The notes below the pieces were generated by a model. It was not told the origin of the DNA and searched no databases. It saw only the letters and a list, made by a program, of their open reading frames with translations. Shown here piece by piece: positions 2,441 through 54,194 of a stretch of 64,000 nt of DNA (position 1 is its first letter; each line of letters opens with the position of its first letter). Both the position numbers and the translations under genes were made by a program. This DNA comes from Antitrichia curtipendula (Eukaryota > Streptophyta > Bryopsida > Hypnales > Leucodontaceae): NCBI GenBank assembly GCA_951230915.1, contig OX579640.1, positions 25,564,981-25,628,980 of the forward strand, read 5' to 3'.

Positions 2441-2519
2441 CCATGCTGCAAATAGCTCTTGGATACGTTAAAATTGTACATAACATTCGCTATTATTAAA
2501 TAAAATTATAAATATGACC

Positions 2520-3665
2520 GACCTCGAGAGAAGGGTGACAATGGCACCCTCCATTCCGGACATCTACCATCAACACAACAAAATCCTGAACTTCAAAAAA
2601 CATCAACATTGAAAAAAATTGCAAATAGGACCAATCCTAATCCGAGAAGAGAGTGACAATGGCACCATCCATCTCGGACATCTGCCATCCACACAACAAA
2701 ATCCTGAACCTCAAAAAACATCAATATTGAAAAAAATCGCAAACATGACCAACTCTGACCCAAGAGGAGGGTGACAATGGCACCCTCCATCCCGGGCATC
2801 TACCATGAACACAACAAAACCCTATACCTCAAAAAACATCAACATTGAAAAAAATTGCAAATAGGACCAATCCTAATCTGAGAAGAGGGTGACAATGGCA
2901 CCCTCCATCCCGGGCATCTACCATGAACACAACAAAACCCTATACCTCAAAAAACATCAACATTGAAAAAAATTGCAAATAGGACCAATCCTAATCCGAG
3001 AAGAGAGTGACAATGGCACCATCCATCTCGGACATCTGCCATCCACACAACAAAACCCTGTACCTCAAAAAACATCAACATTGAAAAAAATTGCAAATAG
3101 GACCAATCCTAATCTGAGAAGAGGGTGACAATGGCACCCTCCATCCCGGGCATCTACCATGAACACAACAAAACCCTATACCTCAAAAAACATCAACATT
3201 GAAAAAAATTGCAAATAGGACCAATCCTAATCCGAGAAGAGAGTGACAATGGCACCATCCATCTCGGACATCTGCCATCCACACAACAAAACCCTGTACC
3301 TCAAAAAACATCAACATTGAAAAAAATTGCAAATAGGACCAATCCTAATCCGAGAAGAGAGTGACAATGGCACCATCCATCTCGGACATCTGCCATCCAC
3401 ACAACAAAATCCTGAACCTCAAAAAACATCAATATTGAAAAAAATTGCAAACATAACCAACCCTGACCCAAGAAGAGGGTGACAATGGCACCCTCCATCC
3501 CGGGCATCTACCATGAACACAACAAAATCCTATACCTCAAAAAAAAAAACGCTCTAAAAAATTGCAAATAGGACCAATCCTAATCCGAGAAGAGAGTGAC
3601 AATGGCACCATCCATCTCAGACATCTGCCATCCACACAACAAAATCCTGAACCTCAAAAAACACC
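2520..3665. repeat. 118-bp satellite array, about 10 copies
   Basis: The landmark GTGACAATGGCACC recurs about every 117-119 bp (near 2534, 2652, 2770, 2888, 3008, 3124, 3243, 3361, 3479 and 3597). The best copies carry a hairpin, GGAGGGTG-ACAATGG-CACCCTCC (8-bp stem, 7-nt loop). At least two subtypes (AGAGAGTG...CACCATCC and the perfect-stem type) are mixed through the array. Frames running through it are artefacts of the repeat. The same family recurs in the opposite orientation at 54195-55235. Confidence 0.9.
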
Positions 3666-3689: not shown

Positions 3690-3932
3690 ATAACTTCAAA
3701 AAAAATGAAAAATGAAATCAATCCTTTAACGGATTCCGTACGTTTGAAACTCTAAGACTTGGAGCAATTGAACCAAAACAGGATTCAAGATTGTAATACA
3801 TCCGCATACCTTTGTAAATCATATGACTTCCTCAAAGCATTCCCATCACTCTTTCTTTAGGACCTGGCATATCAAAAACATAGAATTTAGAACAACATTA
3901 GACTTCAATGCAATTCAATTTTCACCCAAAAC
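3690..3932. repeat. Partial ~380-bp repeat, left flank of the hAT insertion
   Basis: A 5'-truncated copy of the 1351-2440 repeat, from CATAACTTCAAAAAAAATG to TTTTCACCCAAAAC. The final CCCAAAAC (3925-3932) is the left target-site duplication of the large hAT element; the same repeat unit resumes at 18687. Confidence 0.88.
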
Positions 3933-4000
3933 CATGGTTGTCATACTGTACGGACGTCCGGTTCGCCCGTCCGTCCGTCCGGGACGTTCGTTAGAGGTCT
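3933..4000 (+). repeat. Left terminal and subterminal repeat of the hAT element
   Basis: The terminal CATGGTTGTCATA is followed at about 3955-3990 by a GTCC/CGTCC-rich block (GTCCGGTTCGCCCGTCC, then CCGGGACGTTCG). Nearly the same block, in the same orientation, lies at about 18622-18655 (GGTCCGGTTTGCCCGTCC, then CCGGGACATCCG). The subterminal blocks are therefore direct repeats while the tips are inverted repeats. Such motifs are the usual kind of transposase binding site; that role is inferred. Confidence 0.8.
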
Positions 4001-4094
4001 CACCCGCCCAATACAGTCAACACAAAGTTGACTTTATGAAACCAAAAAAGTAGGCCACGTGGACACCACGGGGATGCCACGTGGATTTAGGAAC

Positions 4095-4412
4095 ATGCAG
4101 GGCGGGGACTCCAGAGTCAGGGCGGGGACTCCATTGAGTGGGGGCAGGGACTCCATCCAGTAGGGGCGGGGGTTCCAGACAGTGGGGGCGGGGACTCCAG
4201 TAAGTGGGGGCGGGGACTCCAGTGAGTGGGGGCGGGGACTCCAGTGAGAGGGGGCGGGGACTCCAGAGAGTGGGGCGGGGACTCCAAAGAGTGGGGCGGG
4301 GACTTCTGCGTGGGGGCGGGGATTCCAGCGACTAGGGCGGGAACGTGAGGAGGACGGGGCGTGGACGGCACGTGTCGGGGCGGGTACTTGAGGAGCGGGG
4401 GAACTATATAAA
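4095..4412 (+). promoter_or_regulatory. GC-box array and TATA box of the kinase-like gene
   Basis: About a dozen copies of GGGCGGGGACTCCAG-like units at roughly 20-25-bp spacing, written on the plus strand as GGCGGGG (so CCCCGCC lies on the minus strand). They end in a TATA box, TATATAAA (4405-4412). Downstream, CCCGCCCTCATTT resembles the start region of the RING gene (CCCGCCTCATTT). A likely leader intron runs from GTGAGTGAG (about 4486) to GAGCTTGCAG (about 4570), just before the ATG at 4597. The box orientation is opposite to the other three arrays, making this array the inverted partner of the one at 17936-18530. Confidence 0.75.
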
Positions 4413-4596
4413 GCGAGTTCCCGCCCTCATTTCTTTGCCAAGTCCGCGCCCTACGCCTCACACACTAGTTCGTCCCCACGGCCTATGTGAGTGAGTTTGG
4501 TGGGTGGTGGGCTTGGCCCTCATATGTGACCCGGTTTTTTTCAAATTTTCGGGGCTTTTGAGCTTGCAGAGGCCCATTGAACAATTTCTTTTCGTT

Positions 4597-6178
4597 ATGG
4601 CGGGGGAAGGGAGTGCATCGGCGGAGAAACGTCCTATGTTTGTAGATTTAGATGATGTCGGTGAGATGGTAATTCCATCCACGGACAACTTGATGGCCTC
4701 AGGTTCATCGAACCCTTCTTCATCAAGCCAAAAGAAACGCAAGAAAGCACTCAATCCCTATATGCCTCCACATGAATTCATAGTTGAAGGGAGAGCAATA
4801 GTTGTGGTGTTCTACACTCGTCGCAGTACGACTATATTGACCAGGGAGTATGTGGCGCTCAACGAAGAAGGGTACCACAAACTCACGAGGGACCTGCGAA
4901 CGGAGCTGGAGTCAAAGTTTGAAGCATCTGAGAAATTCAACAATTTCTCCGATTATTGGTTGCACCAAGACTGGCTGGATAAACAGGTGATTGCCTTCAC
5001 AACCAATATAGTGTCAAATTGGTGTTACCACATGGGGAAGAAAGAAGATGGTAGCGATTGGGACACACAAAATAAAGAGGTGGTTGCAAAGTTGAAAATC
5101 ATTCAAAACTTTGCTCAACAATTTTCTTCATCACGTAAGAAAAAGCAAGCACCTTGGAAAGCGACAATTGAAGACACCATAACAGCTCATTGTGTTAGTG
5201 GAACATTCAAGTGGCTTGAAAGTTCAGTAAAAGTCATCCCCATGCCGGAACAGAGTGCCGTTGGTTCATATGGGACCGTGAGGAAGGTGATGCTTACAAA
5301 ACTTCAGAGCATTCCTAGTTGGATTATTTTTTGTTGGGAAGAGCTTGAAAACCACGAATGAAAAGGAGAAGCGCCAAGGAATCATCAATGAGGCGGGCGG
5401 GTGTCCAGTGAGACATCCTGGCATCATTCGAATTGCGTACCTCCACCCTAAAACGATGGAAGGCTACACGTTATGGTGGAATGGAGGCTCTCTAATTTCT
5501 TTCTTATCCAAATACAATTCGAAAGTAAGCGAAACATTGGATGTCGATGAGATTAAGCATGAACAAGGTATAGGGTTGACAAAAGAGGAGCTTACATGGG
5601 TTGCAACTTACCGACGGAACCGAGCGAACTTGGCACTCTCTTTGCTTGTCATTGTGGGGAAATGCTACGATGCGCAGTACATGCACAACGACATCACTCC
5701 ATCCAATATTTTGCTCCATTTTGATGATTATAAAGAGCACACGGTGTATATAGGGATATGTGATTGGGGACTTTCTAGCCGAGCTGTAGAGAAGGAGCCG
5801 TCAAGGTATGGCTTTCCCAACAAGGACATCCTAGTGAAGGAGAAGAGAATGCGAAGGTTTGCAGCCCCTGAATTGTTTTATATATACGGAGAGCAAGGTT
5901 CGGCAAATTCAATTGAGGCCATGCAAAAAATGCATTTGTATTCCATGGCAGCTGATGCATATGCGGCCGGATGGATAGCAGCACAAATTTGGAAGGAAGA
6001 GTGGGACTCCAAATACTTTACAACGAAGAATCCAGAGCAGTATCAGAACCTCAAGATCAAATTGGAAAGCCTCGTAAAAGAGGATGTGAGTGAAAGGGCG
6101 TCAGTGCCAGATGTTCTCGACGCATTGAAGAAGGCCCCCCACTGTTGGACTATGCCAGAATGTTGTTATTGTATATAG
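4597..6178 (+). CDS. Divergent protein-kinase-like protein, one frameshift (hAT cargo)
   Basis: Starts at ATG 4597 (MAGEGSASAEK), the first ATG after a likely leader intron. The frame holds to about 5330, then must shift by one base inside a run of six T (5327-5332) to continue to 6178, giving about 526 aa. Kinase signatures span the break: glycine loop VGSYGTVRKV just before it, the probable lysine strand FVGKSLK just after, the catalytic loop YMHNDITPSNILL (HND for HRD, T for the usual lysine, Asp and Asn kept), CDWG in place of DFG, and FAAPELF for APE. The N-terminal ~220 aa are acidic/serine-rich, then unassigned. The key Asp, Asn and metal Asp survive, so the ancestral protein could have phosphorylated substrates; the substrate is unknown. 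The break may be a homopolymer assembly error or a real lesion. It shares its promoter design with the other two genes of the element. Confidence 0.72.
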
Positions 6179-6184
6179 TATTTA

Positions 6185-7800
6185 GTTTTTTTACTTTTTG
6201 TAGCTTAGCATATAGTTCAGGCATAGAAGGTAAATCATCCTCATAGAGGACCATGTGTATGTACTTCGCAATTGCCGAACACCTCAAATATATATGAAGT
6301 CGGATGCATTGTACATTCAAAATCTCATGTGAATATATTAACCTGCTATGTCATTGTTCTTTCTCATTGCATGTTTATGAGTTCTATGAATTGATGATAA
6401 AACTTTTATAAAAATAGTAAATGCAATAGTTTGGTATAAAAATACATACACTTTATCTTTTCACTATGTCTATGTTTTACAGTTTTAGAAGTTAATGAAG
6501 CCCCCCCAAAATAAAATAAATGATCCAACAAAAAAAAGAATAACATTGAAGTACATTGGGATAATTTTAATCATGAACACAAAAAAAGGTTCAAAAAAAT
6601 TAAAAATTATAAAACGAAAAAAAGAAAAGGAAAGGGAATGATGGAACCCAAAAATAAGATTAATGGCTTTGAGTTGAGGTGGAAGAACTTTAGTAAATTA
6701 GAAAAAAATAAAGTAGGGAAAGGAAAGATTGAACAAATAAAGCTAAACTATGAATTCGAATAAAATAGTCTTCTCACTTAATGAACGAAAACAAAATAGA
6801 AAATGGAATGTTTGAACAAAAAAAAAGAAAATAACTATGAGTTGGGATGGGAGAGTTTTAGGAATGAAGCGAACAAAAAAAGATAATCATCCAAGCCAAA
6901 AGGAATGGCATAGAGTTGACATGGGAACTCCTTTGTTCATTAATGAAAAAAAAAATAGGAAAGGAAATCATGGAACAAATCCGAAATGGCTTGGGGTTGG
7001 TATGGAATAATTTTGTGAGAGACATAGACCCACAAAAAATAGTGTGTCAAAGTGATTTCAACTAACACCCCAAAAAATTTACCATTTAGTTCGGATAGAT
7101 TTGCGTTACCACAAAAAGTAAATGGAATTTTTTTTAGATGAAAGAGCTTGGCTAATAAAAGCAAAAAAATGAAATTAATAGGAATGATCATTCAAAAATA
7201 AATGGCCTCGAGTTGGGATGGAACAATTTTGCTAATAGCGGGAAAAAAAAATCATTCCACCTTACATAAGTGGCATTGAATTCAAATAATTTTTTTTGGT
7301 AATGATGCCCACAAAATAGGGAAGAGAATGAAAACACCAGAAAAATTATGGCAATCACTTGAAATGGAAGTGTGCTTTAAAAATCAATGTCTAAAAGGGG
7401 AGATGGAGTGACCAAAGCTTTAGAAAAGCATACCAATTTATTTTAGGATTTTTAGCGGGGGGAATTATTTTTACGGACTTAAATAATCTAACATTAAGAG
7501 AAATATGAATGGTGGAGTGCTTTCTTATATGGAAATGATTTGGGTGTCACTATAAAATAATGTAACATCCAAAAAATCTATGGAATAGTGGAGTGATTTA
7601 GACATGGAAGTGGTTTGGGGGTTACAAACTTATAATGAAGCAATTTAACACCCAAAAAAAATATGGAATGGTGGATTGATTAGGATATGGAAATTATTGG
7701 GGTGTTAGAGTGATATGATCTAACATTAAATCTCAATATGGACTGCTAGAGTCACTTAGATCATGGAGTAATGTAGAAGGCTCAGAAATCACTCATCTAG
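6185..7800. repeat. AT-rich degenerate repeat spacer in the hAT element
   Basis: No gene seen. After about 6480 the sequence is a worn tandem array of blocks reading roughly GGAAAGGAATGATGGAAC, A-runs, then TGGCATTGAGTTGGGATGG and AATTTTGCTAATGAAG, with strongly variable spacing. The same word set fills 10780-12760, so the two spacers probably have a common origin. Open frames here are low-complexity artefacts. Confidence 0.6.
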
Positions 7801-7802
7801 GG

Positions 7803-8190
7803 GCTGGTTCGCATTTCTACAGTATTTCTTTACATGGGAATATTTTTAAGCTCATCCTTGAAACTAAGAAAAATTGATGAGGAATGTAGCCCAATCGGTT
7901 TCATATTTTTTTAAACATTATTGAATTAATTATAAATTTTCAAAGGAGATGTGTCCTAGGTCCCTATTTATATTCTTACGTCCTTCATATTGCAATTCTA
8001 AAGAAAAATGGGGATAGCAAAGACAATGATTGGCTCTTGTGATAAAGAATGTTTTTTTCCTTCCTTTCTTTTTGTCTTTTGAGGTCAATTTGAAAACTGC
8101 ATCATGTCCATTCTACAACCACTTATAGGGGCAGTTCTTAATGCCAAAACTCTTTTCGAGCCTTCTACCTTAGGAAATGGAAATATGTCT
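7803..8190 (-). repeat. Dispersed repeat inserted in the hAT spacer
   Basis: The stretch with CAAAGGAGATGTGTCCTAGG and TCGAGCCTTCTACCTTAGG resembles, in other orientations, blocks at about 33670-33960, 34560-34780, 24400-24650 and 51640-51900. All share 'nearly all CCTACCTTAG', a CATTAAGAACC-like edge and a patch around GGGACCTA...CATCTCCTTTG. A non-autonomous dispersed repeat is likely; its ends were not defined. Confidence 0.45.
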
Positions 8191-8217
8191 AAGCACATTA
8201 ACTTCGTATATTTAAAT

Positions 8218-8344
8218 CATGTCCGCGCCCACTCTCTGGAGTCCCCGCCCCCACTGTCTGGAGTCCCCGCCCCCACTCGGAGGAGTCCCCGCCCCAACTC
8301 GATGGAGTCCCCGCCCTGGCGTCCCCCAGCTGCAACTATATAAG
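8218..8344 (+). promoter_or_regulatory. GC-box array and TATA box of the RING gene
   Basis: About six boxes of GGAGTCCCCGCCC type at 21-24-bp spacing (8222-8330), then TATATAAG at 8337-8344, followed by CCCGCCTCATTT and another CCCCGCCC. The first ATG of the gene is at 8473, about 136 bp past the TATA box. Same box type and layout as the arrays before the transposase and kinase-like genes. Confidence 0.78.
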
Positions 8345-8472
8345 GCCGTCCCCGCCTCATTTGTCCCCGCCCTGCATACTCTCAGCCTTCCATCTCTTCA
8401 TTGAGCTGGTTGTGAGCGTTGTGCCGGGTCTACTTGATTGCCACGTGGAGGATTTCGCTTTTTTCTACAAAA

Positions 8473-10770
8473 ATGGATACACCACCAAGAATGACCAAGG
8501 AAGAACGAGATAGGACCCGACCACGAGCCGGAAACAAACATCGCAAGCGACTACATGTTCTACGAAACCTTGACAAGCTTGCATTCAGGGGGTGAGAGGG
8601 CGTGCTTGAACCATGGACATATGATGACTGCGCCAATTACATTGAGTGGTGCCACATAGACAAGTTGTTCTCGGAAGAGCGACACAACTGTCACAGACGC
8701 TTCCACGAGGCAAATTTAAAATACTGCCTGGACGAAGAGTTTACAAACCGATGCATTGAGGTGTACCAAGTGTTGTATGCTCTCTCAAACGTCATACGCA
8801 ATGAAGTGCAACTTTTCCTTGCACGAGGGGTCTATGCGGAGCTGAAGTTGAACAAGAGAGTGGATTGGTCAACTTTGAAGCAAATGGAAGAAAATGTCAA
8901 TATTCCTACTCCAGCAAATGGATTCATTCCAAGGGGGGTAAAAAGATACCCGGAAGGTGGTCTAGGGAAAACAAATACGCAGGTTCAAGCACCACGAAGA
9001 TATGACACTGAAGACTCATCTACGGACGACGACTCAGATGGATTTCGTGTACCAGTTGTAGTCAGCCATAGAACTCAACTACTACGAGCTAAAAAGAGGA
9101 GGGCTTCGCGTCAAACTGTTGAGGTTTTACACGAAAATGTTGTGGAGGAACAAGTGCCACCTATTGACGAACTAGTGGTAGGAATTGTGGATGTTACAGC
9201 TGCTACAAACCGAATCCAGGGTTTGTTGATTGAAGTGAATGAGAAGAATGAGGAATTGCATTCTTTGTATAATGATGTTAACAAAATGAGAGAAGACATG
9301 CAAGAGAAGGACAACATTATCAATCAACAACAACGTGAGATGGAGGTACTTCGGCACGCTCTTGAGGCAGCAACATTGGCCAATCGTGGTCAAGATCCAC
9401 GAGGGGAAGCGCAAGGGCCTTCAAATAATTCTCAAATTCCATTGGAACCTACAGAAGTTGGTGCAACAATGGATACTCAGGATGATTCTTTGTCCTTTGG
9501 AGAATTACCCGCAAATGTAGGTGCAGCAGGGCCAGTGGACCAAAGCATCCAACTGACGGACGCGCTTGCAATGAATTTGACATTGAAAAATCAATTGCAT
9601 GCATTGATGGAGCAGTATTACCAATGGAAGCTGGCATGTGTCTTCAGTGTTGACAGGACTAGACAAATGGTGGAGGAATTTAAAAAAATTGACCACAATT
9701 ACGGCGCACACAATCAAGAGAGGGTTTTTGGTTTAACATCGTGGGCCCTGGTGGATGATCATTTCAACATGGATGAAATGGCAACCATTGACATTGCTGG
9801 TGGACAAACAACCATCGACTGGTCCAAACATGATTGGGATTTCAAGAATGAAATTGGCTCTGTCGTGGACCATGAAGGCAATCCATTACTACTGTGGCCA
9901 AACCCTTCAACCTTCGTACACGATGGAACTACATGTCCCATTTGCCTTAATCCATTTGGCCCGGAAGGTGGAATGCACTTAGGCACATGTGAACATTTGT
10001 ACCACCCATTCTGCCTAATTAGCTTGATGATTGTCTGCCGACGTTGTTCACTATGCAAGGCTCCTTTCCATAAGCGCTTGTATGAGTTGTTTGAATTAGT
10101 TCCCTACATGCCACCGCATTGGGAATTCAATGCTGAAAATGCCCCTGATCATTCTCAGAAGTGGGGAACAGACTTGGTGTGGAGTTGAAAATTGAACATC
10201 CATTCATTGGGCAAACAACAACTTTGTACCGAATGGGGTTGGGAAAAAGATCCGGCTCAAATTGTGGAGGTGTGCCACCACTTGGTTCCATTGAAGGACA
10301 ACTTTAGCCAAGGACGATGGAATTTCTTCTTCCAATGCTTCAATGGGCATTGGAATGAGGCACAAGAATACTTCCAATTTGGACCTCATCCTCTTGGATG
10401 GTTGTGGGGCGTTGATGGAGTTCGCATTACTGACGACCAGGGGATGCGGAGGGGGGAAGACATTGACATGCCAGACCCTGCTGAACTTGCACAACTATCG
10501 GAGTCAGAGTGGCGAGAAACCTTTCGAAATGATGGGATGGACTTCTTGTTGGAACAACATAGCCCGGGAACTCTCCAATGTCTTCAAAGCCTCAAGCAAT
10601 CACAAATATTGAAGGCTCTTTTAGAGGAAGACGGACCAGCGAGGAGAACTCGATCCGCAGTTCGTAGACTTCGTTTGGGAACAGATGAAGACCTTCCAAT
10701 TCGCGCCGGGACACATGACAATGAGGCTGGACCAAGTGGCAATGCAAGTAGTCCAATGAACATGGACTAA
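8473..10770 (+). CDS. Coiled-coil RING-H2 protein with two in-frame TGA codons (hAT cargo)
   Basis: One reading frame runs from ATG 8473 (MDTPPRMTKEERD, very basic) to TAA after 10768, about 765 codons, broken only by TGA at 8593-8595 and TGA at 10186-10188. Coding quality continues smoothly across both, so they look like point stops (for example CGA to TGA and TGG to TGA) or sites of readthrough. Near 9205-9370 is a coiled coil (VNEKNEELHSLYNDVNKMRE...). At about 9930-10060 is a RING-H2: CPIC, then GTCEHLYHPFC, then CSLC. RING-H2 proteins are usually ubiquitin E3 ligases; that role here is inferred. The part after the second stop (WGWEKDPAQ..., RTRSAVRRLRLG) is unassigned and ends acidic. 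No neighbour within 2 kb except elements of the transposon. Confidence 0.75.
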
Positions 10771-10779
10771 GTATAGTTT

Positions 10780-13090
10780 TGAGTATAGTTTTGAGTGTTT
10801 TAGCTAGTGAACTTAGGTTTTCTTAGAAGACTTATTTTCCTAGCACTATAATATTATATAGGCTTATATCCTTTCCTACTTTGTATTACACTATGCATAT
10901 GAAATATATTTGATTTTGTTTTGAATGATTTTGCCCAAAGTGACTTCATTTATTTTTTGCACGTACTCATTTGAAATTTGAATGGACTTGTGGACTTCAT
11001 ACATATTAAAATTATTTATACCATGAAATGAAATGTCATTGAATTGGAGTACAATTCATTCCCAATTTCCACTCAATGAATAGAAGTAGGGAAGGTTGGA
11101 CGGACCACGAAGGCACGAAGTGGCCCGAACTTGAAATTAGGGGAAAAAACGCTTTTCAAATGTCATTAATGCCTTGATGGAAATATATATATGCAAAGGA
11201 ATGATGGAACTCCCCCCCCAAAAGGGATTGAAATAGGTAAAAATTCACTTGCAAAATAGGCAAAGGAATGATAGAGAAAAGCAAAAAATAGGGAAGTAAT
11301 TACCTACTTAAAAATGAATGGCATTTAGTTGGGATAGAATAACGTGACAAATGAAGCCCAAAAAAATTAGAATGGGTTTAGAGAATACAAAATTTAAATG
11401 GCCTTTGATTGAGAATTTTAGATGGAGCAATTTTGCTAATGAAGCACAAAAAAAGTAGGAAGGTAAACTGAATGCCAAAAATTGGCATTGAGTTGGAGAA
11501 AAATTAGGAAGAGAATAATAATGCCATTTAGTTTTTATATAACTTGGGATGTAACAATTTTGCTAATCAATCTAAAAAAAATTGGAAAAGAAATGAATCC
11601 AAAAAATTAGGAAAGGGAAAGAATCCCCCCCAAAAAGGAAAGGGAATGAATCCCAAGAAACATTTGATAAGGGAATGAATCCCAAAGAAATAGGAAAGGG
11701 AATGATATACAAAAAATAAAGGGCATTGGCCATTGGGATGGCATGGGATAATGTTGCAAATGAAGTTCAAATAAAATTAGGAAGTAAATGATATACCCAA
11801 AAAAAAGGCATCTATTTGGAATACAATAATCTTGCAAATCACTAACAAAAAATAAGAAGGGCTTAGGTAATACAAAAATTAAATTATTTAAATGGCCTTC
11901 GGGCTCATGATGGAATGGAGCCATTTTGGCATTTTGCTAATGAATTTTACAAAGATTAGGAAGGGAAAGAAATGTAAGTGCATTTTAAATGTTGCTAATA
12001 AAAACAAACAAATGTGAAACAAATATGAAACAAATATTGTTTCACATTACCTTTTATGTCATATGAAAAATGGGAAGTGAATGGATAGACTTCAATTTCG
12101 TACCATAAAAAAAAAAATTTAGGGAATCCCTTAGGATGGAATAATTGTGCTAATAAATAAAACAAATAGGAAAGGAAATAAGCAAAACAAAAATGCTTAC
12201 CATTGGATTAAACAATTTTAGGAATTAATGAAGAAAAAAAATAGGAAAGGAAGTGAGTTGGATGAATAAATATTGGCATGGAGTTCACATAAAAGAGTTC
12301 TATGAATTAATGAAGAAAAAAATGGTGAGTTTGAGTTGGGGACTTGGGGTGGGAGAACTTCAGGAAATAAGCGAAAACAAAATAGAGATGGAAATGATTC
12401 AACAAAAAAAGATGAAATGAAAATTGGGATGGAAGATTGTTAGGAACAAAATAGAAAAAGGAATGATTCAACTAAACCAAAAAAATTAAATATAATTTGG
12501 GATGGGAGAGTCTTACGAATGAAGCATCTACAGAAAAAGAAGACAAAATGATCCAACCCAAAAAGAATGCCATACAATTGACAAGTTGGGATGGGAGACC
12601 TGTGCTAATTCCTGGAAAAAAATAGGAAAGGGAATGATGCCCCCCAAAAAAGGACAGTGACTTAGAATGGAAGACTTTTAGGAATGAAGCCCGAAAAATT
12701 AGGAAAGGAAATGATGGAATTAAAAATTGCAGTTGCATATTGAAGGCCTAGAATTTTAAATAACTCCCCTACTATTTCTTTCATTTCAAATACAATGCAG
12801 TTTTATCCTTTTATCTAGTACACTACATTTCAAAAATATTGATTAAACATTTACTAAATATTTCCTCAAAGTGTCCTAAACATTTCCTAAATCAAAGAAT
12901 TTACATTGTTTTTTACAACCTAAATGATATGTTTGTTCAAAGTAGTTTGAAGTGTTAGAAGAAGTAAGGAAAAACATTTCTCACCACAACAAAGGAGACA
13001 TCCTCTTCCATGGATTTTCTTCCAAATCTTAGGCCATGGACCTCTTTATTCGGCATCTTGCTTTCATTGTCTTGTCAGAATCCAAAATAA
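10780..13090. repeat. AT-rich degenerate repeat spacer in the hAT element
   Basis: No gene seen. Same low-complexity vocabulary as 6185-7800: AGGAAAGGGAATGA, CCCAAAAAAATAGG, GAGTTGGGATGG and TTTTGCTAATGAAG. From about 11580 to 11710 a short block (AGGAAAGGGAATGAATCCCA) repeats every ~30-35 bp. The last 300 bp before 13090 are plain AT-rich DNA. Confidence 0.55.
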
Positions 13091-13184
13091 GTTGTTGAGG
13101 CTAAATTAATGCTTCCCACTCTCCAAAGAAAAGGGCGGTTCAAGGATGTCACATTTCAAAGTCTTGCTTCCTGTGCTGGACGAG

Positions 13185-13774
13185 TTAGTCCCCGCCCTGG
13201 AGTCCCCGCCCTGCCTTCGAGTCCCCGCCTTGGAGTCCCCGCCCTGACTTCGAGTCCCCGCCCTAGAGTCCCCGCCCTGCCTTTAAGTCCGCGCCCTGAC
13301 TTCGAGTTCGCGCCCTGAATTTGAGTCCATTCCATGGAGTCTGAGATTGAGCTGCGCTCTCTCAAGTTCCTCCATTTGTGTGAATTGTCCGCCCCGGAGT
13401 CCGCGCCCTGCGTCCGCGCCCTAACACAATCCATTCAGCGAAAACATTGGGGAGTGAAAGCCATTTTCTTTGCCCACGAATTTGGGGGCGTGACGACATT
13501 TAATGTTCCCCTTTTTCCATGAAAAGGAGGGACACAATCTTCCCAGACCATTAAGGATGGCGAAGGTCAACGTACTTTTCGATGCATTCCTGTGAGCACA
13601 CCTGCATTTCTGTACTGGAGTCGTGCCCTGGAGTCCGCGCGTTCGAGTCCCCGCCCTGGAGTCCGCGCCCTGCCTTCGAGTCCCCGCCCTAGAGTCCCCG
13701 CCCTGACTTCAAGTCCGCGCCCTATACTTTGGTGACGAAGACGTCCGCGCCCCCTAAACCGCTAAGTATATAAA
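13185..13774 (+). promoter_or_regulatory. Two GC-box arrays and TATA box of the transposase gene
   Basis: Array 1 (about 13185-13320) and array 2 (about 13625-13760) are built of TCGAGTCCCCGCCCTG and GGAGTCCGCGCCCTG boxes at 18-22-bp spacing. Between them are two more boxes near 13395-13420. TATATAAA lies at 13767-13774 and the transposase ATG at 14002. The alternation of CCCCGCCC and CGCGCCC boxes matches the right-end array. Confidence 0.78.
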
Positions 13775-14001
13775 GGAAAGGAAGACCTAGCATTCTCCAC
13801 ATTTGTCACTTGGCCTCTATTTCTTGGACTTCAATTCATTTTGAGCTCCTTGTGAGTCTACTTGGGTGGCAGATGGCCCTAGTTTGCTGCTGAGGTGATG
13901 TCAAAATCAGTTCAAGCAGTGGAGTAGCGCTAACTGCTGTTACTGATACTGTGTTTGGTATATCTTGGATCCTTTTAACTTCAATTTAAAGGAGGAGGAA
14001 G

Positions 14002-16140
14002 ATGGAAGAAAATATCCTTGGATCATTGAACGCAATGGCAAGTCAAAGGAAGCAGACCAAGGAATGGGAGCCGTGGCTTCAGTTTACGGAGAATGGGGTT
14101 AAAGTGACTTGTGTTTTCTGTGCTGGGACCTTCAGTTACAAACGTGAGCGTGCTTTTGCACACTTTGGATATGGCTCCAAATCGGAGAGGTCAGTTTGTC
14201 GAAGTATGCCTCGTCCAGTGCGACATAGATTTGCCAATTGTGCAGGATTTGTCCCGCTACGAATCGATGTCGGGGACATGTATGAAGGAGAACCAATTCA
14301 AAGTGCGCCATCTAGAGCAACTCCTCTTGCAAGTTCAAGTGAAGCCACTGAAAATGAGGTGACGGGTGGGATCAATGGTGGAAGAGCGGAAGAAGGGGCA
14401 AACGTTTTAGAAGGAATTGATATTCTACAAACGTCAAATAGTCTTGCTGGATCCAATTCTACGAGATCTGGATCATTACATCAACAACGCATGGCAGACG
14501 CATTCAACATTGCAAAGAGGAAGGAGTTGGATGAGAAGTGGGCAAGTTTTTTCTATGAAGCGAATGTGCCATTTAATGTGGCAAGGCATCCAGCCTTCAT
14601 TGAAGCGGTGAGGGCAACCTCAGTGGCGAAGTTTGAATACAGTCCACCTTCTTACCATCAATTTAGGATTAATTTGATTGAACCGAGGAGGTTGCAAATT
14701 GAGAAGCAGATTCAAGAGAAGGTTGGATTTGCTATCAAGCACTACGGGGTGTCGATATGCACCGATGGTTGGGATGATGTCAATCGAAGACCCCTCATGA
14801 ATGTGATGATGTCATGCCCCACAGGTGATGTATTTTTGGGGTCAATTGATACTACCTCGCAAAAGAAAACCATGCGCTACATATCGGACCAAATGAACGT
14901 GTACATTGAGAAGGTGGGTCCCAAATATGTAACACAAGTGTGCACAGATAATGCAGCAAACATGCTTGGCGCATTGAAGGACATCACTAACACATACCCG
15001 CATATTTTTGCGCAAGGCTGCATGGCACATGCACTAGATCTCATGTTGGAAGACTGGGCCAAAGTCCAAGAATTTTCCGATTTAATTGCCAGGGCAAAAA
15101 GATTGTGCCAATACATTCGAAACCATCATGCAACCATGTCGGTTTTCCGCGAGTTGAGTCCGAATCTGCAACTCGTAGTGCCTAGCGAAACCCGCTTCGC
15201 TTGTAATTTCCTCATGTTGCAGCGATTGGTGAAACTCATAGGAGTCTTGGAGCGGTTGAATAACCACCCACGTGTTCTAAATTTCTTTGATACCCTAAGG
15301 AATGAACAAAATGGACCGCAAGCAGCTACCGCTTCACGTAATGTCAAAAGAACCATTGAAGATGTGGCTTTCTGGCAACGGTGTGTGAATTACGTGTACA
15401 TGACTGAAGACGTATTGAAGGCTTTGCGTGTGTTTGATGGACGAGAACCAGCCATAGGTTGGGCGTGGCTCGTAATGCACAATTTGCGAGAGCATGTGTT
15501 TTCTTTAAGAGAACCACCTTTCAGCTTACGTGATGACATAGCAGTCATTTTGGAAGAATCTTTCAGTGCAAGATGGCACATGGTTTTTGAAGATACATAC
15601 TACGCAGCGGCCCTTTTGAATCCATACCTCTTGGATAACATGGCGCTTAGGGAAGATCGAACTGCCCTACGTGCATTGTACAGAGTCATCCGCAACATGA
15701 TGGGGAACCTGGGTGTCAATTTTGATGATGTGATGGCGGAATTAACAGAATTCGAGGAGGGTATTGGACCCTACAGTCCAGCTGAGACATCCAACATCCG
15801 TGCGACACAAATGCTTCCCCACCAATGGTGGCACAGGGTTGGAGATCGGGCTCTTTCAAAAATTGCCGTGCGTGTTTTATCCCTCACGTGTTCCGCCAGC
15901 TCCTGTGAAAGGAATTGGAGTATGTATTCCTTTGTTCACAATAAGATCCGAAATCAATTGGCCCCTGAAAAGGCAGAGTCCCTGGTATATATTTATACCA
16001 ATAGCCGTGTACTTCGCCAACGACCAGGAGCCGATCCAGTTCGTTGGTATGATGCGAATATGTACTCAGAGGATTCTAATCCAGATGCCCTTGGACCGAT
16101 CCCGGTGAATGAACGCAATCGGGAATTTGACGCACTGTAA
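14002..16140 (+). CDS. hAT transposase (BED-like finger, DUF659, dimerisation domain)
   Basis: 712 aa from ATG 14002. Near residues 15-75 is a BED-like finger start (WLQF...VTCVFC...H). The RNase-H-like core reads as the DUF659 type: CTDGWDD (D255), VCTDNAANM (D316), CMAHALDLMLEDW, a SETRF motif, and the C-terminal hAT dimerisation block with SCERNWSMYSFVHNKIRNQL (E636 and the adjacent W). All three catalytic acids are present, so this part could still be active. It cuts and re-inserts hAT elements in the nucleus, making 8-bp duplications, which matches the duplication around this element. The frame ends at TAA 16138-16140, but coding-like sequence goes on beyond. Promoter boxes and TATA box lie directly upstream. 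Confidence 0.93.
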   Translation: MEENILGSLNAMASQRKQTKEWEPWLQFTENGVKVTCVFCAGTFSYKRERAFAHFGYGSKSERSVCRSMPRPVRHRFANCAGFVPLRIDVGDMYEGEPIQSAPSRATPLASSSEATENEVTGGINGGRAEEGANVLEGIDILQTSNSLAGSNSTRSGSLHQQRMADAFNIAKRKELDEKWASFFYEANVPFNVARHPAFIEAVRATSVAKFEYSPPSYHQFRINLIEPRRLQIEKQIQEKVGFAIKHYGVSICTDGWDDVNRRPLMNVMMSCPTGDVFLGSIDTTSQKKTMRYISDQMNVYIEKVGPKYVTQVCTDNAANMLGALKDITNTYPHIFAQGCMAHALDLMLEDWAKVQEFSDLIARAKRLCQYIRNHHATMSVFRELSPNLQLVVPSETRFACNFLMLQRLVKLIGVLERLNNHPRVLNFFDTLRNEQNGPQAATASRNVKRTIEDVAFWQRCVNYVYMTEDVLKALRVFDGREPAIGWAWLVMHNLREHVFSLREPPFSLRDDIAVILEESFSARWHMVFEDTYYAAALLNPYLLDNMALREDRTALRALYRVIRNMMGNLGVNFDDVMAELTEFEEGIGPYSPAETSNIRATQMLPHQWWHRVGDRALSKIAVRVLSLTCSASSCERNWSMYSFVHNKIRNQLAPEKAESLVYIYTNSRVLRQRPGADPVRWYDANMYSEDSNPDALGPIPVNERNREFDAL

Positions 16141-17531
16141 TCAGAGGAAGAAGAAGAGGTTGATGGGGAAGCCAACCGAGGAGCTCAAGAGTATCCGGCA
16201 AACCCAGATGCACTAAGCAAGGAGCCGATCACCTCGAAGAAGCGCGGAACTACTATGGAGATGCTGATGATGGAGAGGAGGAACTCCTTCGTGGTTGTAG
16301 GGGACCACCACCACCAAATCCTCGTTGTAGTCTTTCACCTCCACTTCCTCAAAATGAAGGGGTTGTAGAAGTCCCAGCTTTGTCGTCTTCTTTGGAGACC
16401 AACAATCCAAATGACGATAACGTTGATGATGGTATTTTCCACAACAACAACGACGATGATGACAACCTCCCTCCAGGAAATGGCGGCGGAAATGGCGGTG
16501 GAAATGGAAATGGTGGTGGACATGAAAATGGCGAGAGAAACAGGGGGAGGAATGCAAATCCAAATCATGGAGGATCTTCTCACAATCGAGATGGCAATAC
16601 ACGCCCTACGGGAGTGGAACCAGCAACTCGTAACATTAGAGCTCTAGAAAGACAGCATGATAGAAACGTTAGAAATGCAAGAGTGCCACGCCCTTTTGCA
16701 AGAAATCAACCGGCTGGTAACATGAGAAGGCCTTTTGATCCAGAGCATGTGGACCATGATGATGTTTTTGCTTTTGTAGAACCATCCGAAGACATTGCCC
16801 CTGTACCGACTCCAGTTGCGGGCCATCCTGCTATTTCTGAACATGGTATACAAGTGCCACATTCCCTAGATCCATCTTCAGAAACAATTTCCAATGCCAT
16901 CCAAAGACCTTCTCAAGAAGGATTAGGCTCAATGGGAAATGTTGATTTGACTCTGCAAAGAGTTTCACGTGGTAGACCACCTGTGGCCCCTCGGCCCTCC
17001 GTTCATCATGAAGTAGGTCAATATCAACAAGCCCGTGGACGGACGAGAGGCCATGGTAGAGCTGCAGGCCGTGGAGGGAGTACAAAAGATCTGCATATTG
17101 GAGAAGCATCATCGCCAAGGCATGCTAATCGTTCACCCCTCGAAATTGGAGCAAGAGATCCAAATAGGGTGATAGAACCGTTCCTAAGTACATACGTACC
17201 AGGACCTAGCCGGTCAACTCCGGCATTTGTTGTTCGAACAATTCCAGGTGGGTCTACTATAAATTCTGATGCAGAAGACCCCAACGCACAACGACACAAG
17301 AGGTTGAAGCGCAAACGTACTCATGGCCAAACAACTATAGAGCTTCGAAATGAAAACTTGGAAGTTGAGGAACATTGGACCACCGACAGTGGTGAAGCAG
17401 AAGATGAATATGACAGCAATGAAGATGCCAATGACGAGGCACCATAGGATGATGATGTTGTTGTTCGAGATGCTAATGCAGCGAATCCAAGTGCCCAAGA
17501 AGTTCGTAGGTCGAGTCGTTTGAATAATTGA
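16141..17531 (+). CDS. C-terminal extension of the transposase, displaced by stop and frameshift
   Basis: Directly after TAA 16138-16140 the same frame continues with an acidic stretch (SEEEEEVDGEANRG). Near 16200-16245 the coding sense moves to another frame (RNYYGDADDGEEELL...), which runs to TAG 17445-17447 and then on in frame to TGA 17529-17531 (RRSSRLNN). The longest uninterrupted piece is about 355 codons (16380-17447). Composition: acidic Asn/Asp runs, a Gly/Asn block (PGNGGGNGGGNGNGG), RG-rich GRTRGHGRAAGRGG, and a basic patch RHKRLKRKR. These are typical of disordered nucleic-acid-binding tails. Most hAT transposases stop soon after the dimerisation domain, so ~450 extra residues would be unusual. 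It could instead be a separate downstream gene; the lack of its own box array argues against that. Confidence 0.55.
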
Positions 17532-17935
17532 GGTTATTGAGTTGCATCGATGGTAGATCTCGGATCTTTAAGAGTTGAAGACAATTGTAGCAATTGGAAG
17601 AAATATAGACGAGAAGCCAAAAAAATGTTTTGGATAACCTATGAGAAACAGAAAAAGTGAGCATATTTTGGAAGTATAGATTCATTGTATTGATATTGTA
17701 CTTTGCAATGCATGAATTTTATAAACTATTTTGGTTATCACAAACATTGCAGCCTACCTGTATTTTTTTTGTGTATTTTGTATTTGATGGGCCTCCTGGA
17801 AACCTTGGTGGGGAAATCATGTAAAATACATTCCAGTTACTGGTTCTTTTTAATGCAGTGGGGTCTCCTATTTGTTCCAAATTTTTTTTATACATATATA
17901 TATATATATTGTAGAACACATAAATTTAATCCACC

Positions 17936-18530
17936 ATTGCCCGTCCGCGCCCTCCCACTCACGTTCAGGTCCGCGCCGTACCTGAAGGAGTCCGCGCCCT
18001 AACGCGCTGAAGTCCGCGCCCTGCCTGAAGGAGTCCGCGCCCTACCTGTCACAGTGAAGTCCCCGCCCTGCTTGAAGGAGTCCGCGCCCTGACGCGCTGA
18101 AGTCCGCGCCTTGCCTGAAGGAGTCCGCGCCCTGCCTGTCACAGTGAAGTCCCCGCCCTTCTTGAAGGAGTCCGCGCTCTGACGCGCTGAAGTCTGCGCC
18201 CTGAATGAAGGAGTCCGCGCCCTGACTGTCACACAGAAGTCCCCGCCTTGCTTCGAGGAGTCCGCGCCCTGCTAGCTGAAGTCCGCGCCCTGCTTGAAGG
18301 AGTCCGCGCCCTGACGCTCACACTGAAGTCCCCGCCCTGATTCGATGAGTCCGTGCCCTGAAGCGTTGAAGTCCGCGCCCTGAATGAAGGAGTCCGTGCC
18401 CTGACGCTCACACTGATGTCCCCGCCTTGCTTGAAGGAGTCTGCGCCCTCACGCGCCGAAGTCCGCGCCCTGACTGAAGAAGTCCCCGCCCTAACGTCCG
18501 CGCCCTGACTGAAGAAGTCCCCGCCCCTGG
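17936..18530 (+). repeat. Right subterminal GC-box array of the hAT element
   Basis: About 25 boxes of GAAGTCCGCGCCCTG / GGAGTCCGCGCCCTG / GAAGTCCCCGCCCTG at 21-26-bp spacing, grouped in a higher-order unit of roughly 90-115 bp (with CTGTCACAGTGAAG or CGCTCACACTGAAG marking each group). It follows an AT-rich stretch (17532-17935) with a short TA run and no gene. It is the inverted counterpart of the left array at 4095-4340. No TATA box follows it. Confidence 0.85.
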
Positions 18531-18599
18531 ATCCAGCTGTCCAAGTTGACGTGTCATTGAAAAAAATTCCACAACTTTGAGAAATTGAGGCCGTCCAGT

Positions 18600-18686
18600 T
18601 GGTCCAGACCGTCCGTCCGTCCGGTCCGGTTTGCCCGTCCGTCCGGGACATCCGATGACCCTAACTCGCCCGTTATGACAACCCTG
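18600..18686 (-). repeat. Right terminal and subterminal repeat of the hAT element
   Basis: Read inward from 18686 on the minus strand: CAGGGTTGTCATAACGG, then GTCATCGG and a GGAC-rich block (plus strand: GACCGTCCGTCCGTCCGG, then TTTGCCCGTCCGTCC). The tip pairs with the left tip over 12 of 13 bases. Confidence 0.85.
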
Positions 18687-19149
18687 CCCAAAACAACCGA
18701 ACTATGAAAGAAATCTTTCATTTTTTTTTATTTTTTGGAGTTCGGGATTCCTCAAAAGGTAATAAATTCGAAATGTCAGCCCGGAACCCGATTGGTTCTA
18801 GGCGCCAAATCACATCAATCCATCGAGGAATCATAACTTCAAAAAAAATGAAAAATGAAATCAATCCTTTAACGGATTCCGTACGTTTGAAACGCTAAAA
18901 CTTGGAGCAATTGAATTGAAACAGGATTCAAGATTGTAATACATCCACATACCTTTGTAAATCATATGATTTCTTCAATGCATTCCCATGACTCTTTCTT
19001 TAGGACCTGTCATATCAAAAACATAGAATTTAGAACAACATTAGACTTCAATGTAATTCAATTTTCACCCAAAAAAACAAACTACAAAAGAAACCTTTCG
19101 TTTTCTTTTTTTTTAAAGTTTAAAATTCTTCAAAAAGAAATTCATTTCG
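18687..19149. repeat. ~380-bp repeat, right flank of the hAT insertion
   Basis: Begins with the right target-site duplication CCCAAAAC (18687-18694) and continues AACCGAACTATGAAAG as expected for the next repeat unit. One full copy runs to about 19066; a second is cut at 19149 by an LTR. Confidence 0.85.
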
Positions 19150-22851: not shown

Positions 22852-23570
22852 AGGGAGGATGCTTACATCAAGAATAACTAATTTCTCCCATGTGTTCAAC
22901 AAGTGCAACCAACTTCACGACGATCCAAACAACAAACCCTAGAATTTCAACCAAAAGCTCCAGCTGAAAGATCTTAATCACTTTCTACTCCAATTTCGAG
23001 ACCTCACATGTCAGCTGAATTCAAGAGCAACGAGATTGGACTCAGTAACCGCTATCGCAAGCCCTCAGAGATTGAAAATCAGCACAAAAAAACTATGCTC
23101 TATAACAACTGCAAGCGACTATAATGAAATATTAACTTGCAAATTGGACTTTCCACTTTTACCTTAAATACTGAAGTATTGTAGCTACCAAAACTAATCC
23201 TTACGAATGCAAACAAATTACCACTCTGAGGTCAAGAATTTACAGTAAGAAAATCACAAAGAGATGCAAATCATAAGAGGATGCAAAGCGCAGATTCCAA
23301 CATCTGTCAAAATGTCATATTATTTTTCTGCCAAAGTATTCAGTGTTCTTCACTGGTTCTGGCGATATAAAACTTGGCCCATCTGAAATGCATTTTTCAC
23401 AAATAAGATCATACAAGAAGGTCTTCTTAGATCTATTACTCCTTTACATGCCAATAGTTCACCGGAACAAATCTCAGTGGGGGTAATAACACAATTATGC
23501 AGCTGAAAAACAATTTCGAATCCCTACCCACAAAAGAGTTTGTTGTTCTTGCGCTCACTTGTTTAGTTGG

Positions 23571-23700
23571 TTGGAGCAGGTTACGGTGTACAGGTTAATA
23601 TGCAAAGGAACAGTTGAAGAGAAGATAACGTTGTGTGCAATTTCTTCTCCTCTAAACTCTATGGTTATTTTGTACATCAAAGAATGGCAACCCTGATTTT
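23571..23700 (+). pseudogene. SNF2/INO80-like helicase exon fragment (left arm)
   Basis: The frame at 23580-23627 reads VTVYRLICKGTVEEKI, a hallmark of the end of the SNF2-family helicase C lobe (INO80-class: DVTVYRLICKETVEEKIL). It runs on about 25 codons to a stop near 23699. No Walker, DEAH or R-finger blocks are seen nearby, so only this exon was copied or survived. Confidence 0.65.
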
Positions 23701-25255
23701 GATATGGAATGTTTGATCTATCGGTATCGCAGGACAAGCACGAGAGACGAAAGAAAGGATGGGCTGTAACAAGTACTTTGAATCAGAGAACTCGAATCCC
23801 TACCCACAACCACCTAGAATTTCCTCAAAACCCACAAAACTCATAGACCGATAATCCACGAGCAACATCTCCCACCCACACGAAACCAAATACTTACCAG
23901 CAGGAGACGCCGTCGCCGCCGCAATAGCAACAACTTGTCGCGCGTCCATGAAACTACTACGGCCTCGCTTCTTGTTGGCTACAACTCTGTGCCTTGAAGC
24001 AAGTTGCCGCAAATTTTTCTTTTTGGATTTCAAGAATGAAAATAAAAATAAAAACTAACTCACCATTTGGAGCATCCTATGGCATTTGTGATGCAGATGG
24101 AGAGCGCCGACTTGGGAGCGGAAACGAACGCGCTCGATATGGGTGTGAGCGATGCGCTCCACGCCGAGGCACTCTTTCTCCTACTCTTGATCCGTGTTCT
24201 CGGACGAGCGGATCTAAACAGCATTAGTCGACTTGAGAGCAAATTTCAACTTAAGAGCAAAGTACAAAACCGAAAAGAAATTAACCAACTCACAAGTGTC
24301 ATGAGAGAGACATTAAGGCAGCAGGTTCATAAATTGTCCACGTCACGTAAGGGCTAGAATTGAATTTCGGAGAGGTGAAACTTTTTTGAAATATTTTTCA
24401 GTAAATATTCTTTGAAAGAAAAGTGGATTTGGCATCTAACCCAAGTCATTTCATATTTTTTGGAGCTTTGTGGAATTAGCTATGAAATTTTGAAGTTGAA
24501 TTGGCATAGGGCTCCAAAAATCGTCCACCACTTAAATACAAATAGTTTGTACATGAGTGAAGGCTATGAAAAAGTAGCATGTACAAATTATATACATTTT
24601 ACAGGTGATTGGTTCTTAATGTCCGAACTATTCTTGAGCCTTCTACCTTAGGTCCTCAACCCTTACATGTCCTAGGTTTTTTTGGAATTCGTAGGAATTT
24701 GCTCCCACTTGAACAAGAAACCAACATTTTGATAAGTGGAATCAACATTTTTTTTAATGTAACCATAAAAATTTAAACGAGAAATGTTAGAGAACAATAT
24801 TACTTATAGAGTGATAGATTATAATGTTTAATCTGTCATAGAGCTTTTAGAAACTACAAAAATGATTTGAAGTCTTTCAATTTTCTTTGCACATATCAAA
24901 TTTAGAAATTTGGTCACCAAGATAACTTGAAGATAAAGGACCTAACAAGTATAACGTCAATCAATTTATAATTTTCTAAAATACATTATACCAGATTTTT
25001 TAAGTGAATTGCTAACAACATTTTTTCTCCAAGGCGTAGTATATTTGAGGCTCATTTCCAAGAGCCATCAACAATATGGAAAGTGAAGATTGCAGTGGAC
25101 ACCATTGCAAGAAAATCTTAAATTCAAGAATCATAATCAATGATTTTTTAAATCAAAATTTTGATGCTATAGAAAATTAAACTCTAAAACATTTTTATAC
25201 AAAAATACAAAACACCCTCCAAATGAAATTTGTTTAGATTTTATTTGCCTTGACT

Positions 25256-27339
25256 GCCTAAAGGACCAAGACCATTTTTCTGCCAAAAACCACTCAACAC
25301 TATCGTTTCTGCTTAGGTCATTCAAGAAAACAAAAAAACTATTTTTTTAAGAATCTAACCATAGAATCTTGGACTTTATCTATCTAAAATCATTTGATAA
25401 AAATTTCATGAAGTTTGACAACACAAATTCAAAGATATTAGCATTCCAAGTTGGATAAAAATAAAATTTGAACATTGGCTTGCAATTTCAAATGACTTTG
25501 ACCGGCATTTGTGCAAATTTTTGGCACTTTGGACTTAGATTTTTTAAATGTTATTGTGTTGACAATTGAGTTGAAAGTCTAAAAAAAATTGCAAAATAAA
25601 ATTGCTTGTTTTTTATTCTTTAAAAAATTGTTAAGTAGAAATAGGTACATGAGTGAAAGAAAAAATAAATCATTATTAGCTCTAAGATGGGATTGAAACG
25701 CAATAATCTCAGTGGTGAGATTGTTGTAGCAAGTAGTATTAACCTTGTCATTCAAACATTTTTTTTGAAAAATGATAGAAATTGCATTCAGAAATGAATC
25801 TTTTAAGTTATTTTTTCAAAAAGATGCATAAATTGCCCAAAAAACAAAATTGTTCGTTACTTTCACATTACTAATCCAAATGAAATGAATCAAAGCTTCA
25901 TGTTTAGTTAAAAATATGATATTTAAGGGAAAACAATTTAAATTTTTAATTTCATGTTTTTTAGATTTATTTCTCTGCCCGGTGACATAAAAATTAGTGT
26001 TTAGGGTGACTAACCGGATTAGGAGGGCTTCAAATATAAAGGTACATGCACTTCATGTGCACTAATTTACTCTTATAATGGTCCGGGTAACTTCTTCAAC
26101 TTTGTTTTCGGTTATTTTGAATCCAAATTTCATATAACTTTAGTCCATTTGCATAGGTAAGATTTTTTTTAGGCATTCAGTACAAAAGGAACTTTTTTAT
26201 GTTATAATTGCTAATATAAGTAGTGGAAAAAATTGTGAAGATACATAAAAAATTGTAAGTAATTGTAAAGAGAAATAAACCGGAAGTCTCCATGTTTGGG
26301 ACCCAAAGTCTCCATGTTTGGAACCAAAATTCTCCATAATTGGCCCAAACTTTTCAAGTTTAGGACCCAAAGTCTCTATGTTTGGGGCCAAATTTTCCAT
26401 GTTTGAGACTTGAATTCTCTATGTTTGGGGCTGAAACATTCTAAGTTTGGGACCCAAAGTCTCCATGTGTTGGTCCAAATTGTCCACATGTGGAATCCGA
26501 AGTCTACATATTAGTATCCAAACTCTCTTTGTTTGGGTCCAAAATCCTCCATGTTTGAGACACAAAGTTTTTATGTAAGAGAAGAAAAAAGATATAAAGG
26601 TAGGAAAAAAAATGGAGGGGAAGGGGAAAAAAAATGTGAGATTGAAAATAAGTAAGATTACCTATGGCTTGCAATTTCAGATGACTTTGACCGTCATTTG
26701 TTAAAAGTGTTTGCACTAAAGACTTTGAATTAAGAAAAATTTGCGTCAAAGAATTCAATTAAGAAAAAAAGGCTATGGAAAAAATGCTTGTTTTTCATTC
26801 TTTAAAAAATTGTTAAGTAGAAGTAGGTCCAAGATTGAAAGAAAAATTAATATCATTAATAGCTCTAAGATGGGAATGAAACACAATAATTCCAAAAATG
26901 AGTTTGTTCTAGCAAGAAATATTAGCTTTCTCAAACATTTCTTTTTGAAAAAATTACGAAAATTGTTTTCAAAAATTAATCCCGTAAATTATTTTTTCAG
27001 AAGGATGCCTAAATTGCCCGAAAAGCATAATTGTTCATAACTTTCACATTACTAATCCAAATGAAATGAATTAAAGCTTCATGTGTAGAAAGAAATATGA
27101 TTTTTAAGAAGAGAAAATTCAAAACTTAAATTTCAAGAATTTGTGGATTTATTTTTCTGCCCACTGATGTGAAAAATATGTTTAGAATGGCATAATTTGA
27201 GCTCTTAGGCACCATTTGAAAATTAAATTATATTCCCATTAAGCTCAAAAGTTTTTATATCTTACAAAATAATTTCAGAATATTTCATTAAGAAGTGCGA
27301 TCATAGGAACCTGCCCAAAATCCATTTTGTTCACCAAGG
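25256..27339 (+). mobile_element. Disrupted piggyBac-like TTAA MITE in the left arm
   Basis: From GCCTAAAGGACCAAGACC...TTTCTGCCAAAAACCACTCAA to CCATTTTGTTCACCAAGG, the same landmarks in the same order as the intact TTAA-flanked elements at 32351, 45913 and 47786. The middle is expanded: the block starting GACTTTGACCG and the block TTAAGTAGAAGTAGGTCC...GATTGAAA each occur twice (about 25490/26680 and 25625/26810). The TTAA ends are lost. Confidence 0.55.
26281..26570. repeat. ~24-bp minisatellite (TCTCCATGTTTGGGACCCAAAG)
   Basis: About ten worn copies of AGTCTCCATGTTTGGGACCCA-like units in a row, with point changes. It sits inside the expanded part of the left inverted-repeat arm and is absent from the right arm. 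Confidence 0.75.
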
Positions 27340-54142: not shown

Positions 54143-54194
54143 GCATCAAATCCTAATCCGACTCTTGGGTCGGAGTTGGTCACGTTTGCAATTT

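Follow-up and report, generated by a model that had tools for sequence, protein, structure and literature searches.

How a cut-and-paste transposon of almost 15 kb can carry two genes besides its transposase and still multiply is the question raised by a locus in the genome of the moss Antitrichia curtipendula. Cut-and-paste elements are usually pictured as a transposase within a few kilobases. According to the available part of a 2019 review, the efficacy of DNA transposition falls above 6 kb of cargo (PMC6431247). The stretch analysed here (the window) comprises 64,000 nucleotides of contig OX579640.1 (positions 25,564,981 to 25,628,980, assembly GCA_951230915.1), and the element occupies positions 3933-18686 of it, a length of 14,754 bp. 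It encodes a protein kinase, a RING-H2-type protein and a hAT transposase, and is very probably a member of a multi-copy family of giant hAT elements with three genes, which move by hAT cut-and-paste.

The unit is bounded by two copies of CCCAAAAC, at 3925-3932 and 18687-18694, which are identical over all 8 bp. Immediately inside lie the terminal inverted repeats, CATGGTTGTCATA on the plus strand at 3933-3945 and CAGGGTTGTCATA, in minus-strand reading, at 18674-18686; 12 of their 13 bases match, and the 13 bases of the right tip are identical at the end of all ten further copies fetched from the genome. An earlier note, made from the letters of this stretch, had proposed a single hAT unit with these exact ends, inserted into a host repeat that resumes in register, and had allowed that the duplication might arise from repeat phase by chance. 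The proposal is borne out. The host DNA at the insertion is a 381-bp tandem repeat, and an empty site of 500 nucleotides, rebuilt from 250 nucleotides of each flank with one CCCAAAAC, aligns with the host unit at 1847-2337 over 491 nucleotides at 94.5% identity and without gaps; it has four further, shorter matches in the window (75.5-92.9%, 0-11 gaps). The intact host units at 1698 and 2078 contain one CACCCAAAACAACC apiece, with a single copy of CCCAAAAC (at 1700 and 2080), and the duplication was therefore made by the insertion and not by repeat phase. A third unit, at 19066, has drifted at the equivalent site and reads CACCCAAAAAAAC.

The same unit recurs in the genome. A search of the assembly (400 Mb, 303 contigs) with 148 bp of the left end gave 194 first-look candidates, of which 40, including the window copy, were scored and match at 96-100%. 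Of the 39 rows listed besides the window copy, the first ten were read out to 20 kb. Nine are long (13,851-18,415 bp) and hold the same genes between their ends, with the kinase and RING genes covered in full in all nine and the hAT gene in eight (0.69 in the ninth); such bracketing was what the earlier note had made its single-unit reading depend on. The tenth, flanked on both sides by ATAGAGGA, has shrunk by internal deletion to 795 bp. Target duplications are exact in six of the ten copies, agree at 7 of 8 bases in one and are unmatched in three; five of the exact ones and the 7/8 one belong to long copies. Copies L010 (left flank) and L028/L029 (right flank), at C6 3.69 Mb and C8 3.9 Mb, both lack a matching duplication. 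Compared crosswise, their flanks share 7 of 8 bases, AAGAAATT to the left of one and AAGAAATC to the right of the other, and the opposite pair is unmatched, as ectopic recombination between copies could leave.

A search with the RING protein gave 2,387 first-look candidates, of which 53 rows were scored. Sorted by open-frame length, 34 rows are window-type, 13 come close to 832 amino acids, five to 828, and one has 823. For at least ten of the 34 window-type rows, one of the 40 left ends listed (of 194) lies 5.5-5.7 kb upstream in the same orientation; the chance of such a pairing is about 0.00075 per row. These data bear on the possibility that the locus is a macrotransposon or chance composite, in which host genes lying between two separate hAT ends moved with them on a single occasion. 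Maize Ac is known to form macrotransposons. Against this, no internal tip with up to two mismatches exists within the element, a feature in which it departs from the Ac case, and across the 64-kb window there is no further tip with at most one mismatch and four with two, all outside the element. The layout is moreover common to nine long copies, six of them with their own exact or 7/8 duplication, and the gene set to two diverged elements described below, which makes a composite extremely improbable.

An extra segment near element position 9,400 follows the same pattern in four of the nine long copies, which measure 17.75-18.4 kb. The additional 2.3-2.9 kb of the 17.8-18.4-kb copies contain no fourth gene in the form of a Met-start frame of 200 amino acids, and the six frames, read in one copy, look like spacer together with what may be a Tc1-like relic, judging by a motif. 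In L026/L027 (about 9998-12339 of the joined stretch), the extra 2.3-kb AT-rich segment adjoins a repeated piece of the transposase promoter region.

The kinase gene lies at 4597-6178 on the plus strand and encodes 526 amino acids in open copies. Its Pkinase match (6.6e-8) is above the Pfam cut-off. Among the matches listed are at least 41 homologues, and in the 21 of the 41 that were aligned K, HN, A and E are invariant within the K, HND, DWG and APE motifs, the remaining motif residues being at least 90% conserved. The AlphaFold model of one relative (P0103; predicted local distance difference test, pLDDT, 83) resembles solved kinases. The RING gene (8473-10770, plus strand; 765 amino acids in open copies) is assigned on different evidence. 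Pfam RING profiles score under their curated cut-off; when 14 of 30 homologues are combined into a profile, it finds solved RING fingers, with 1.4e-7 as the best value. Seven of the eight zinc-ligand columns are invariant in these 14 and one His column varies, and the complete C-x2-C...C-x-H-x2-H-x2-C...C-x2-C pattern is found in an open copy. The AlphaFold model of a RING relative was poor (pLDDT 56) and was set aside. The 30 RING and 41 kinase matches listed in the word-based search are metagenome proteins, bar one labelled as a Bacilli metagenome-assembled genome (MAG), and no named plant protein is among them.

The transposase gene, at 14002-17531 on the plus strand, starts at 14002 or 14035 and encodes 1184 amino acids in its sole open copy. 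Pfam identifies DUF659 (3.3e-36) and Dimer_Tnp_hAT (6.7e-8), and the catalytic residues D255, D316 and E636 named in the earlier note are confirmed when counted from the ATG at 14002. The N terminus has a C-x2-C...C stretch without a BED match in Pfam at E 0.1, and sequence searches of the PDB gave no match. Long relatives measure about 1,000-1,200 amino acids and are poorly conserved in the tail. Among named transposases the closest comes from the moss Ceratodon purpureus (38%, covering 72% of the query). In a midpoint-rooted tree of 34 hand-chosen rows it nests, with support 100/100, in a 25-row clade containing the window protein, and the flowering-plant rows and Chara fall apart from this clade, a placement that fits a moss host. 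Scans of IMG/VR with the RING, kinase and transposase alignments found no relatives. A locus titled as a Halorubrum MAG, the only one among bacterial or archaeal contigs, carries a distant hAT piece without motif copies and was not used.

All three genes are broken in the window copy. The reading frame shifts near 5340 in the kinase. TGA codons at 8593 and 10186 interrupt the RING frame at positions where relative P0002 has tryptophan, and the transposase contains TAA at 16138, TAG at 17445 and a frame change downstream of the first. The extra genes are full-length, as the earlier note had stated, but their frames are open in other copies and not here. Across the ten long copies, window included, the kinase is open in five, the RING gene in three, the transposase in one, and all three in one.

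The family appears young. Coding regions of the ten long copies are 97.8-99.3% identical pairwise, and their variants comprise 486 singletons and 59 shared changes, with 391 of the 486 singletons being C>T or G>A. This bias and the excess of singletons suggest methylated sequence decaying after a recent burst, and the window copy would be one insertion from that burst, since inactivated. Within the family, the singletons give ratios of nonsynonymous to synonymous differences per site (pN/pS) of 0.55 (kinase), 0.76 (RING) and 0.98 (hAT); the shared variants, which are few, give 1.05, 1.02 and 0.86 in the same order. These values come from a site-based table; a comparison with one reference copy had given 0.30, 1.11 and 0.83, and its kinase value of 0.30 was dropped as evidence of selection because the private changes of the reference recur in every comparison.

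Older relatives in the same genome extend the picture; one locus was read for each of two other RING classes. Element 1 (C2 35.887-35.909 Mb) is 22,766 bp long, with TTCCCAAG on both sides and tips matching at 13 of 13 bases; its plus strand carries RING and hAT genes, and its minus strand a kinase in two frames as well as another RING piece. Element 2 (C3 32.572-32.590 Mb; 18,225 bp, CCTCATAG on both sides, tips 12/13) contains kinase pieces on the minus strand, with residues 1-150 unmatched, and plus-strand RING and hAT genes in pieces. Over the compared codons, amino-acid identity to the window family is 57.5-58.6% for element 1 and 64.4-77.4% for element 2. The ratios of nonsynonymous to synonymous substitution (dN/dS), which are rough given synonymous sites near saturation and stops skipped, are 0.24 (kinase) and 0.29 (hAT) for element 1, where the RING gene is saturated (pS 0.758, pN/pS 0.36), and 0.10, 0.18 and 0.24 (kinase, RING, hAT) for element 2; the hAT figures count overlapping matches twice (1,199-1,200 codons against 1,184). 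A decayed relative near one copy, at about 19.140-19.145 Mb of C9, retains a head-to-head RING-kinase pair.

With figures well below 1 between lineages, the kinase, RING and hAT genes look constrained. This matters for the view that a hAT captured two host genes that now ride along without function, as in the fungal histone-H3 hATs. Fungal hATs with captured genes do exist, going by the available text, and variants within the moss family are closer to neutral, both in favour of this view. The between-lineage ratios of kinase and RING genes (0.10-0.24 where measurable), the element-private motif that adjoins both and the absence of named plant proteins among their listed matches all speak against passive carriage, which we consider very unlikely. 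The same gene set, under apparent constraint in diverged lineages, argues that kinase and RING are genes of the element rather than captured passengers: they look like long-standing working parts of the transposon. The word "cargo" in the earlier note was correct in that two extra genes are present, and understates their recurrence and constraint.

The non-coding parts of the element carry a second shared feature. The motif GTCC[C/G]CGCCC, allowing one mismatch, occurs 65 times in the window, each time inside the element and in four clusters. The left array (4100-4451, minus strand, 15 motifs, 13 of them reversed) doubles as the upstream region of the kinase gene and has a TATA word at 4405. 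On the plus strand follow the RING-gene array (8221-8372, 7 motifs, TATA word at 8337), the pre-transposase array (13188-13752, 16 motifs, TATA word at 13767) and the right array (17943-18526, 27 by motif count, with a 90-bp period in Tandem Repeats Finder). The three TATA words lie inside the arrays or at their downstream edge, ahead of kinase, RING and transposase; the same search finds nine more elsewhere in the window element. Exact 9-base cores number 53 in the element and none outside, against a mean of 0.085 and a maximum of 2 in 200 first-order Markov sequences of the element. Around the ten other fetched copies no motif lies outside the element in eight, two in one and seven in one, and five of these seven sit between the RING and kinase pieces of the decayed relative. 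In the diverged elements all motifs (80 of 80 and 38 of 38) are inside. Within the stretches read, the motif is restricted to the elements. TATA words in or beside arrays precede kinase, RING and hAT in element 1, and RING and hAT in element 2.

A mechanism can be proposed from this arrangement. The hAT transposase very probably moves the element by cut-and-paste. The arrays would be bound by a protein of the element's own, whether the RING protein or the transposase, whose tail is long and variable, and would act both in end recognition and as one switch common to all three genes. The kinase and RING protein would modify the transposase, host repair or host silencing, and such modification would keep a large element expressed and mobile. 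That the arrays are a shared switch has slightly less than an even chance of being right. A role of the kinase and RING protein in mobility or anti-silencing is put forward more tentatively. Equally tentative is the whole: a transposon regulon, in which a long-kept three-gene hAT clade has one element protein reading a private motif at ends and promoters, with a kinase and a RING ubiquitin ligase whose effect on the transposase or on host silencing would let even a very large element burst.

Subterminal repeats of known hAT elements bind transposase. The arrays may accordingly be read as transposase-binding subterminal repeats and nothing else, copied beside internal genes without controlling them. 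Their copy number does vary among long copies (9-17 motifs on the left, 20-35 on the right), as this reading would allow; an array with a TATA word ahead of all three genes in the window copy and element 1, and of RING and hAT in element 2, fits it poorly, and we regard it as rather unlikely. Much the same weight falls to the idea that the RING protein or the transposase tail is an array-binding anti-silencing factor like the VANC protein of VANDAL elements. VANC targets, in the available part of their description, are short motifs that form dense tandem arrays of one orientation in the non-coding sequence of the elements themselves, and the repeats are gained and lost (PMC5735166). The moss arrays resemble this pattern, including repeat gain and loss, and C>T-biased decay suggests methylated copies; on the other side, one array of element 1 is mixed in orientation and no Pfam match of the six window frames indicates VANC or a Mutator transposase.

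Several observations weigh against the main reading, that of a family of three-gene hAT elements with a shared switch. Three of the ten fetched copies have no matching duplication (3/8, 4/8 and 1/8), and among them is the only copy with all three frames open. Variation within the family (pN/pS 0.55-1.05) is closer to neutral. Kinase and RING genes are head-to-head in both diverged elements, whereas they point in the same direction in the window family, and no hAT gene is present in the 28 kb read around the decayed C9 pair. No kinase-side TATA word was found in element 2, four TATA words in the two diverged stretches are near motifs and away from gene starts, and position is what suggests a function for the arrays.

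Comparison with described systems places the element among hATs and sets it apart from them. It shares with plant hATs such as Ac and Tam3 the 8-bp duplication, short CAGGG-type tips and a DUF659/dimerisation transposase with D, D and E; it differs in about threefold length, two extra genes and arrays shared by ends and genes. A 2018 survey of hATs in Viridiplantae gives, in its available part, no consensus longer than 7,144 bp (Gulliver of Chlamydomonas), and found no hAT in Physcomitrella (PMC6027215). Among the open-access titles and abstract beginnings listed, none describes a plant hAT with kinase and RING genes. The earlier note's claim that no such family is known holds for plants to that extent and is limited by the fungi, where large cargo hATs are on record. 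ToxhAT of wheat pathogens, likened here by its description alone, is a 14-kb hAT with cargo and is described as spreading an effector gene between species (PMC9594970). The histone-H3 hATs of Pseudocercospora fijiensis are high-copy, with full-length forms of 9.5-9.9 kb, and combine a DUF659 transposase with an extra gene; that gene is a captured host gene, mostly truncated, and the available text reports no other domains (PMC6710886). Starships and Teratorn are likewise large eukaryotic elements with many genes, but are larger and use a tyrosine recombinase, or a piggyBac fused to a herpesvirus (PMC10175614). The available part of a review of giant transposons makes no mention of hAT.

VANC appears to be the nearest described analogy for the arrays. 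VANDAL21 of Arabidopsis and the moss element both combine an accessory gene with a private motif in dense, mostly same-orientation arrays, as far as the published excerpts go. VANDAL elements are Mutator-like, not hAT, whereas the moss element has a hAT transposase.

The surrounding sequence of the window holds other features. Inverted arms at 23015-25776 and 50495-53128 (928 nucleotides at 96.6% and 1731 nucleotides at 89.7%), about 30 kb apart end to end, enclose frames at 36499-43940 that include a NIF-phosphatase domain. The arms may delimit a second large unit, although inspection by eye showed no duplication next to their edges. A 118-bp tandem repeat occurs at 2514-3577 and, in inverted orientation and about 84% identical, at 54176-55240. 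A 200-bp dispersed repeat in the first spacer of the element (7769-7969) has a reversed counterpart outside it (33747-33946, 75%). To the right of the element lie a JmjC-domain frame (56673-58148, 1.1e-16) and a subtilase fragment (53681-54142, 1.5e-9).

The moss locus thus belongs to a clade of 14-23-kb hAT elements that shows signs of a recent burst and has two accessory genes that look selected. It makes testable whether transposons control their mobility or silencing through a kinase and a ubiquitin ligase of their own. Some kinase-like and RING-like frames in moss genomes and metagenomes may be transposon genes; this assembly gave 2,387 first-look RING candidates (53 scored).

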